A stretch of 64,000 nucleotides of DNA, taken from Peribolospora baueri. Lineage: Eukaryota > Basidiomycota > Peribolosporomycetes > Peribolosporales > Peribolosporaceae. This document shows, in pieces, positions 14,628 to 62,426 of the stretch. The stretch is from assembly GCA_029717555.1 (NCBI GenBank), contig JAMDHS010000010.1:124001-188000 (forward strand). The letters are read 5' to 3'. The notes under the pieces were generated by a model. The model was not told where the DNA came from. It saw only the letters and a program-made list of their open reading frames with translations, and made no database searches. Position 1 is the first letter of the stretch; every line of letters begins with the position of its first letter. Both the position numbers and the translations under genes were made by a program.

Positions 14628-15564
14628 TCAACTCCATTTGTCCACGCTCTTGATCCCCTCACTGACGGCTTGACTGCATAGCTCGCGGGGAAGGATGAGG
14701 CGCGTGGCGGTCTTTCTCCCGTCCAATCGGTTGCAGAAACGGAAGACGGCGACGAGGTGACACCCCATCGCGACCGGATGCGTGAAATATTTGGCTCGGC
14801 CTCGATTCGGGAGACGCTTCGACGATGCACCAGAATGTCGCGGGTGGTGAGCATCTTCTTTTTGGTGTACTTGACGAGCTTAGCGGTCTCGTCGATGATC
14901 TGCTCTAACATGTCGATGTCTTACCAGCTCGAAAGGCACGGCGACGATCGAGATGGTCGAACCGTCACAGCGAGAGGCGGGACGGCAAAGCAGGACTAAT
15001 TGACGATTGACAAGGCCTGAGAAGAGGTGCGGGAGGCGGTCGACGAGGTGAGAGCACAGGGACGGGGTAAGCGGTTCGCGGGGGTGGGGCGACTAGCAAT
15101 GTTCGAACAACGGGTTGCGGTGCATTACTCGCCATGGCATTGATGCTGTGGTCGGCGTGCACTTGTTTGAGGAGCCTGCGGATATACATACTGCTTGAAG
15201 CGGCGACATCGCAGCTATGAGGGAACAGAAGGGGAAGCGTGAGCTCGAGTCTGGAGGCGCCTTCTCCTTACACGAGCTACGATCTGCTCCGGTTACCGAC
15301 TGACAAGTGAAGTGACTTGCGTCACTTCATGCGCCACTTAGTCGTCGACGACGATGGGGGCGCGACGGACGATTTGGCGAACCGGACGAGGCCCTTGCCG
15401 GCATGGGGGCGTGACTGCGAGGAGGGATGGCCGGAGCTCTTGCGGTTGACGGCACTTTTTTTTTTGCCATGGTTTTGATGCGGCTGAAAGCGAGATTTGG
15501 CGTGATTCGCTGGCTTGGAGGTGAGGAGGTCTTGAGTAGAGGCGGGTGCAAGTAATCGCCGCAT
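14628..15564 (-). CDS. Divergent histone H2B-like protein (165 residues), four exons
   Basis: Exons 15564-15326, 15214-15129, 14919-14831 and 14711-14628 keep phase throughout. The C-terminal ~80 residues follow the H2B fold: SMYIRRLLKQVHADHSI (helix 1; canonical H2B has YIYKVLKQ.HPDTGIS), NIDMLEQIIDETAKLVKYTK and KKMLTTRDI (helix 2 and loop 2), then TATRLILPRELCSQAVSEG and IKSVDKWS (canonical TAVRLILPGELAKHAVSEG). About seven residues are missing between helix 1 and helix 2. The N-terminal ~80 residues are Lys/Arg/Ser-rich but unlike a normal H2B tail. Exon 2 could instead begin at 15193. The start is the first in-frame ATG; a frame-shifted ATG at 15472 (MAKKK) also exists. Histone H2B pairs with H2A in nucleosomes. 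The gene lies about 760 bases downstream of CENP-A on the same strand. Core exons are confident; exon 1 is less so. Confidence 0.75.
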
Positions 15565-16326: not shown

Positions 16327-17464
<1,138 letters not shown>

Positions 17465-59558: not shown

Positions 59559-62426
59559 ATGTCCGATGCTCGAGCAGATCAGCAACGCACGCTGAACGAC
59601 TCGCTTCGTCCGGAGCCTCACACTGGACTCCCCGTTGCCGGGAGCAACGGCCACGGCAGGCGACAGGGGCGCGATGCGTCCAGCGTCTCGATAGGAGAGA
59701 GCCCCGAGGACGAGTACGACGAGCTGGGCGAAGACGACGAGGACGAAGACGAGGACGAGGAGGAGGACGAAACGGAGAGCGAGGTGCTGGATGAGGAGCT
59801 TACCAGCGAATGGCTACACTCGTTGTCGGAGGGGGAAGGCGAGACGAGGTCGCCGAACGGCAAGCGAGGCCAGCGGTCCTCACCACCGACGTCCTCTCGC
59901 GACTCAGATGAGGACGAGGAGGATGAAGAGGACGAAGTGGACGGAAACGAGGAGCAGGATCAAGATCTCCTGTGGGACCTTGATCCTAAGATCCTGGAAC
60001 AGGCTCTAGCTGGCCAGGGCGCGTCTTCTCTCACCAACCTCGCCAACCTCGACCCTAACCTGGCGGGCGACCGTACCCTGCTCGACCATCTCGAAGCGCT
60101 CAGGGCTTACTTCGGCACAAGCACGGGGACGAGAACTGGTGTGGACGATGCAACAGCTCAGACAAAGGCAACGGGGGCGAACACTAAGTCGCATTCTACC
60201 TCAAGCATGTCCGCGTGCACCGGCAACAAGCTACAGCAGCAGCAGTCGTCCGCATCTTCTCCTCTCCTCTCTGCCCAAGACCGCCTTGTCTCCACTCCTC
60301 CGGCACCCGTATTTTCAAATTTGCCACGTGCCGCTACTTCGTACTCCTCTCCCCTTTCGAAGAGCTCCAATCGAGCTCCACCGTTAGCGATGGCGGCCTC
60401 GGCTTCCCAAAGCATTCCTAATCTTCAAAGCGTTCTGGATCTCCTCTCCTCCGCGGATCCTGAAGAAGTGGAAGTGGGTCGCTCTAGTTTCGTTTGTCGT
60501 TTCGCTTCGGTTCGGTCGTCATGAGGGTTTCGTTCTGACTCGTTCCCTCCGTTCACACGCACATAGACCACCCTCGACCAACTCATCTCACAGAACATTG
60601 ATCCCGTCCTCCACGCCCAAATCAGCTATATCCGCTCCTATTACGTTGATCAGCGGAGACGGCAGGCGCTGGAGAGTGCAGCGGCAGGGAAGGGCACAAG
60701 CGACTCGGTCGTAGGGGCGAATGGGGACTCGGTCAAGCCACCCAACGGACAGACGGCTGGTGGCGCTTTGTCTTTGGTTCCTTCCCTGTCCTCAGCAGCA
60801 CACGGCGTTGTACCGTTCGCCCACCTCCAATTCGACGACGATGACGACGACGACAGCGATCCCGACTGGATGCCGGAGGGGTGGGCGCAGGCAATGCGGG
60901 ATGTTTTGGGAGACACCAAGAAGACGAACACGGCCGGCCTGAAGCACGACGGGACAGGTTTTCCGACGTCAGGCGGCGCTTTGTCGTTTCCAACCATGGA
61001 TGAGACGGGCAACGCACGACCGGCATCGTCGCCCCCCGTGGCGCGATCAGCCAGCGGCGTCCCGAGGGGCGGCATGTATGGGGACAATGGCGCCGAGGCG
61101 GGTCCGAGCCGACCACTGACGAACTTGACCGTTTCAAGCGCAAGGACGACCGATTCGAACGTCGTGGGCGCGGATTTGAGTATGGAGATGGGCATGGATG
61201 TGGACATGGACGTGGACGTGGACGTGGGTGCGAACAGCGCGACACCAGAGCCAGTTGCGTCTTTCTCTTCGGTCGGCGGTGCCAATACTGGATCGGGCGC
61301 TGACGCAGGACAGCATCAACAGCAGCAGCAGCAGCAGCAAGCAGGACAACGCCTGGAGTTGTCGCCGGCCCGAAAACGGGGTCGGAAGAAAATCTTCACC
61401 CAAGAGGCGGCAGAGGCGCGTCGGAGGGAACGAAACAAGATCAACGCTCGGAACAGGAGAGCGAGGATCAAGCAGGAAAAGTTGCAGAGGCTGGCGACGG
61501 AGAAGGAGAGCGGCAAGGGCGGAGTGGGTGCGGGTGCCGACGGCAACGGCGACGGCACAGTCGCCGTCGGGATGAACGTGAGCGACGCGAGCACCAAGGG
61601 CAAGGAGCGACTGGGGGCGGGGCCGGCGGACGTGGCGATGGGAGAGTTAGAGGGAGGAGGAGGGCTACCGGGGGCGTCGGCGTCATATGACCGGCAGGAG
61701 CAAGAGCACTCGGATTATTCCATGTCGGCCTCGTCTTCTCATCCGGCTCCCCATCCTCGCCTCCATCTCCATCCTCCTCACTACCATCGGCTCAGCCGCT
61801 CCGCCTCGGCGATCCCGCGCCCCTCGTCGTCGTCGTCGCCGTATCCGATTGGCACGCACATGGCCGCGCCCGTCTCGGCGTCACTCGATCCGCTAGAGGA
61901 GGAACTGGAGGACGCATGGGCGGAGGTGGAGTGGTTGGAGAGGGAGAACGCGAGGCTGGCTAGGGAGAATCGGAGGTTGAGGAGGGAGAACGAGGCGATG
62001 AGGAGGATGATGTTTGATGATGAGGAAGAGGAGGAGGAGGCGGGGTGGGAGAGGAGGAGGGCGCGGTTCGACGGAGACGGCCAGGGCGAGGAGGAGCAGC
62101 GCGAGCGCGAGCGCGATCGCTTCCTCACCTCTCGCAGTCGGATGCTTGCCGGCGGGATGAGGCGAACGACGACGCGAGGGGGGCGAGGTAGTAGTAGTAG
62201 TGGTGGTGTTGGTGATGGCGGCGCGGCGTCCAGCGGCACTGGGTGGTCCTCCGACCGCGGGCGAAGGACATGGAGCTTGGAAGGTCGTGGCGAGCGGCTT
62301 CCGAGGGCCGCGGCCGCCAGCAGCAGCGGCGGAGGAGGTGGCGGTGGCGCGAGCGCTCTCACCGTCGGTCACCGCGGGGGCATGGAGAGCATGAAGGCTC
62401 TGGAGGGAGGCGGTATTCCGGCGTAG
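59559..62426 (+). CDS. bZIP-like nuclear protein, two exons, 924 residues
   Basis: Exons 59559-60473 and 60567-62426 keep phase. The N-terminal third is very acidic (runs of Asp/Glu near residues 50-75 and 110-130). Two short folded-looking blocks follow: DLLWDLDPKILEQALAGQG, and across the splice SIPNLQSVLDLLSSADPEEV plus TTLDQLISQNIDPVLHAQIS, then YIRSYYVDQRRRQALE. A Gln run (about 555-563) precedes a basic region at ~574-612 (GRKKIFTQEAAEARRRERNK, then INARNRRARIKQEKLQRL). A likely coiled coil with heptad spacing lies at ~748-795 (LEEELEDAWAEVEWLERENA). This is a bZIP-like layout, but basic region and coiled coil are about 135 residues apart. Start chosen at MSDARADQQ; the frame is open to 59472. 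Family not recognised; DNA-binding is inference. Confidence 0.72.

Follow-up and report, generated by a model that had tools for sequence, protein, structure and literature searches.

A broken, divergent histone H2B paralogue, very probably a pseudogene, beside the CENP-A gene of Peribolospora baueri

Results and Discussion

The minus-strand locus at 14628..15470 of the window (the whole stretch of 64,000 nucleotides analysed here, C11:124001-188000 within a 22.1 Mb draft assembly of 178 contigs) is very probably an unprocessed pseudogene, the remnant of an old and divergent histone H2B paralogue. It extends from an ATG in the H2B position to the terminal stop, and its ancestral frame is disabled at several points: the N-terminal tail has a TGA and a break in frame, and helix 2 has a TAG and a 72-nt insert with a TAA. 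As judged from its sequence, the locus probably makes no histone now.

H2B homology and the canonical H2B genes

The first-pass annotation had described a strongly divergent H2B encoded by four phase-consistent exons, and both the phase and the kinship were borne out. The proposed exons (15564-15326, 15193-15129, 14919-14831 and 14711-14628, minus strand) join in phase across GT-AG borders into a frame of 158 aa. A search of PDB sequences with this spliced protein gave 177 matches; an H2B-type name stands on 59 of the 60 best listed, and the remaining one of the 60 carries only an H4 name. The best match is to a tandem H2B (E 1.1e-29), and the best to a single-domain protein has an E of 2.6e-16. 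Membership of another histone-fold family, such as the transcription-complex subunits that the annotation had allowed for, is ruled out: the closest relatives are H2Bs, whose names dominate the listed PDB matches, and the matches to TAF and TFIID proteins are weak. By these comparisons the H2B homology of the minus-strand locus is real and beyond chance. The locus is absent from the matches of a whole-genome search with the Pfam histone profile, and yeast H2B searched against the whole genome matched only its last exon (E 0.012).

The annotation had also raised the possibility that this might be the only H2B in the genome. That is not so, since there are two canonical H2B genes elsewhere (C146:10793-11059 and C99:91075-91320, both on the minus strand), each adjoining an H2A gene, and because these ordinary genes exist the present locus is an extra, divergent paralogue. 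Both canonical genes are stop-free once introns are allowed, the TGA in the C99 match lying within a GTGAGT intron, and the two do not differ at any of the compared core residues. Identity of the locus to them is 40 of 70 core residues for one and 37 of 65 for the other, which confirms its strong divergence. The closest near-full-length relatives of the canonical protein, among the 120 matches listed, are from Jaminaea pallidilutea (85% identity) and Pseudozyma flocculosa (84%), a kinship that would fit a basidiomycete, perhaps one from the smut subphylum. A second intron, close to the C-terminal end, distinguishes the C99 gene from the C146 gene.

The canonical genes resemble the locus in their histone-fold core, in the place and phase of intron 1 and in a tail that can be aligned, but they differ from it in having no stops and no introns at its two later intron sites and in lying beside H2A genes. 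Since the intron 1 acceptor has the same place and phase in the locus and in both canonical H2Bs, the locus is not a retrocopy. Searches of the genome DNA, which skipped simple and common words, turned up neither an allele of the locus nor a second DNA copy. Of two orthologue searches, both of low sensitivity, one returned 44 candidates with none at E<=0.001, and the other returned none sharing three words; canonical H2B, used as the control query, gave at least 8000 candidates.

Helix 2 and the 72-nt insert

The first-pass annotation presented a working gene whose fold is shortened by about seven residues between helix 1 and helix 2. We find instead that the residues in question are encoded, at 15016-14989, and are broken by a TAG and the 72-nt insert. 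Reading along the minus strand, former exon 2 (15133..15193; helix 1 and loop 1, SMYIRRLLKQVHADHSINAM) starts at the place and phase (2) at which intron 1 ends in both canonical H2Bs, and it is followed by a putative former intron 2 of 116 nt (15017..15132; GCGAGT...TTCTCAG, phase 0), which requires a GC donor. The first part of helix 2 comes next (14989..15016; ALSIVN*SC, with the in-frame TAG at 14998-14996), then the insert (14917..14988), which carries a TAA at 14923-14921 that is in frame, and then the remainder of helix 2 with loop 2 (14831..14916; DMLEQIIDETAKLVKYTKKKMLTTRDIL). Intron 3 (14712..14830; 119 nt, GTGCAT...AAAG, phase 0) is absent from both canonical H2Bs; exon 4 (14628..14711) encodes the end of the fold and the C-terminal helix, TATRLILPRELCSQAVSEGIKSVDKWS, and the stop.

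ALSIVN*SC aligns to AMAILNSFV of the canonical helix 2, a likeness that we had noticed by eye before the following register test was made. At the zero offset that rejoins the two flanks of the insert, the 28 nt ahead of it agree with canonical helix 2 at 16/28 positions for one gene and 17/28 for the other; these values are equalled by 61 and 21, respectively, of the 127,944 28-mers of the window (both strands), and this register is the best of 123 local registers for both canonical genes. Helix 2 is, on this alignment, encoded but broken, by the in-frame TAG and by the insert's TAA in the H2B frame, and an uninterrupted histone fold with a full helix 2 is absent. The fold appears shortened because the proposed splicing steps round the TAG and the 72 nt that derive from another gene, and a reading that bypasses damage is the best explanation of the short histone.

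In spliced alignment with the sequence untouched, a mild stop penalty and GC donors permitted, the program finds ALSIVN*S and drops a stretch of 72 nt that is 3 bases out of step with the insert; this alignment scores 180, where GT donors alone give 164, and it also takes doubtful GC introns in the tail. When the insert is masked and GC donors are allowed, the core aligns gap-free with a score of 190, whereas with GT donors only the score is 166 and gaps remain before ALSIVN. These last gaps speak against the pseudogene reading, as do the GC donor that intron 2 would need, the gap-free, phase 0 fit of intron 3, and the 0 stops and 0 frameshifts in the compared core segments outside the break. 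So does the program's choice of a tiny exon (I-LLC-H) over ALSIVN when it was run at a high stop penalty with no donors other than GT. This exon and a 12-nt exon (S L V N H) were considered as small helix 2 exons and rejected, because the H2B match at zero offset competes with them.

The insert is identical at 70 of its 72 positions to C167:259191-259262, and among the 7 short matches obtained when the first 20 kb of the window were compared with the genome (E<=1e-6) it ranked first. A repeat or an intron-like element is ruled out, there being only one other match in the genome. To go by its frames, the source stretch looks, on its opposite strand, like an acceptor site and the start of an exon; relative to H2B the inserted piece is antisense. 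Among three translated pieces of the C167 stretch that were scanned, one matches WD40 repeats above the cut-off (E 2e-13), one has no match, and the third matches PFU weakly (E 0.0012; 19.4 bits, below the cut-off of 26.2). WD40 followed by PFU is the architecture of PLAA/Doa1, and we infer that the source of the insert is a piece of a WD40/PFU-type gene on the other contig. Templated (filler) insertions at double-strand breaks are short copies of distant loci, and the insert resembles them in being a short, nearly identical copy of a distant locus at a break point; it was probably copied in during the repair of a double-strand break.

Tail and splice sites

The N-terminal tail of about 80 residues had been called unlike known H2B tails. 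From the ATG at 15470, however, the locus resembles the genome's own H2B tails, with the qualification that the likeness changes frame and that a TGA (15324-15322) replaces the Ala codon of the canonical KKARQ. We accordingly place the tail in a former exon 1 at approximately 15305..15470, on the strength of likeness to the canonical tail in two frames (spliced alignment with frameshifts, and DNA alignment). The first-pass exon 1 (15326..15564) is the open frame MRRLLAPAS...TTKWRM with a GTGACG donor, and the first ~31 residues of its tail precede the ATG at 15470. The frame break lies near a run of ten A residues (around 15465), where an error is possible.

The proposed splice sites were compared with 3 CENP-A introns and with 18 introns of nine histone gene models; one of these 18 (GTCTGC) is probably an alignment artefact. 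The reference introns start with GTGAGT in 14 of 21 cases and all end in CAG or TAG, with AAG at none of the 21 ends. In contrast, the three introns of the first-pass model start with GTGACG, GTAATG and GTGCAT, and all three end in AAG; intron 1 could use a nearby CATAG as an alternative acceptor. The splice sites of the four-exon model are, by this comparison, poor.

These results bear directly on whether the locus could be a working H2B variant beside CENP-A. In such a gene the insert would lie within a 209-nt intron, with its acceptor AG inside the insert, and helix 2 would be about two turns shorter. We consider this quite unlikely. It has in its favour that the four exons are in phase, the splicing skipping the TAG and the TAA while keeping the frame, that past constraint is favoured by the codon model and the neutral simulation (below), and that the glutamates of LPxEL and AVSEG and the final Lys are retained, residues that we take to have acidic-patch and ubiquitylation roles. 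But in-phase skips come cheaply: the real locus allows 4 stop-free in-phase skips of the break, the first-pass model's among them, and at least one was possible in 715 of 1000 base shuffles, so in-phase splicing round the damage is no evidence of function. Besides its poor donors and AAG acceptors, the working variant would lose residues from the central helix of the fold while the TAG-bearing helix 2 sequence persists in the DNA, and on PF00125 the spliced protein reaches 21.7 bits, below the cut-off of 26.4, where canonical H2B scores 85.5. With the TAG and the insert in helix 2, the working gene with a shortened fold proposed at first pass did not hold up.

Past constraint on the paralogue

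If the locus is a pseudogene, it may have died early or late. On balance, we favour a long working life as a divergent H2B followed by death, which is less certain than that the locus is broken. Identity to one canonical gene is 50, 51 and 34 of 70 at codon positions 1, 2 and 3. A codon model of the locus branch (78 codons) gave a best omega on the grid of 0.15, omegas of 0.5 and 1 being worse by 2dlnL of 6.9 and 12.8; when the ALSIVN block was left out (69 codons), the corresponding values were 6.8 and 12.0. In this model the stop was dropped, kappa and the canonical omega were fixed, part of the branch is canonical history, and synonymous sites have reached saturation. The codon models thus favour long past constraint, with the saturation of synonymous sites and some contrary signs to be set beside them.

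The contrary signs are those expected of a canonical H2B duplicate that was dead from birth and changed by neutral drift. The changes fall alike in conserved and variable H2B columns, with no concentration in the variable ones (p=0.37 with 49 distinct blocks; Fisher p=0.58 with 50), and of 30 changed residues 27 are absent from other H2Bs at the same column and only 3 are present there. In addition, drift would fairly often leave the 70 chosen codons free of stops (P=0.27). Against a death at birth, an omega of 1 is disfavoured as above, and simulations of it reached or exceeded the observed statistic in 0, 1 and 9 of 60 runs for canonical stems of 0, 1.5 and 4, respectively, with a mean of about 40 of 69 changed residues, above that of the locus. 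In a neutral simulation, from which 672 of 6000 runs were retained, the joint probabilities came to 0.006 and 0.0015, values that are biased toward constraint because the segments were chosen for similarity. Moreover, the two putative later introns have no counterpart in the canonical genes. Taking both sides together, we regard death at birth as very unlikely, and the preferred reading of a divergent H2B paralogue that would have been functional for most of its history before it failed fits these data better.

Finally, the insert or the stops might be errors of sequencing or assembly, as the 178-contig draft status and the A10 run adjoining the tail frame break could suggest, but the insert differs from its source at two positions, its flanks rejoin in the H2B register and there are several separate lesions, which makes an artefact so improbable that we set it aside.

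Relation to known histone variants

Named H2B variants in excerpts from PMC3380720 include subH2B, H2B.W, H2B.Z and H2B.V, from mammals, apicomplexans and trypanosomes, and no fungal H2B variant is named there. The locus is like them in being a divergent H2B paralogue beside canonical H2B, and unlike them in being fungal and broken. Lilium gcH3 and leH3, described in the same excerpts as having histone-fold deletions and as probably non-functional, offer another parallel, in that histone-like sequence has its fold partly lost or broken; they are H3 proteins, however, whereas the locus is an H2B and its apparent deletion consists of a stop codon together with an insertion. In searches of open-access papers, among them PMC3380720 and PMC8015243, no listed title or abstract opening describes a functional fungal H2B variant.

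As a pseudogene, the locus serves mainly as a caution, in that an in-phase exon model can mimic a striking new histone by skipping over lesions. Of more positive interest is the possibility that a strongly divergent H2B persisted for long in this fungal lineage until it was lost.

The CENP-A neighbour and other features of the window

The first-pass annotation had correctly noted CENP-A on the same strand about 760 bases away. This gene (16327..17227, minus strand) lies upstream of the H2B-like locus and outside the relic, its stop end at 16327 being 763 bases from 15564; it has 3 introns with GTGAG donors and CAG acceptors, and its aligned part is stop-free. The tie between the H2B-like locus and CENP-A, or the centromere, is one of adjacency only, as far as the sequence goes. 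In CENP-A itself, the stretch from helix 1 to helix 2 has 8 residues more than H3 in the alignment. Scans of the window for tRNA genes and Rfam families gave no match at the H2B-like locus; a tRNA-Ser (aga) of 102 bases is predicted at 59943-60044 (minus strand). Near the start of the window, short stretches at 1004-1059, 220-265 and 385-431 have copies on other contigs that are 84-93% identical.
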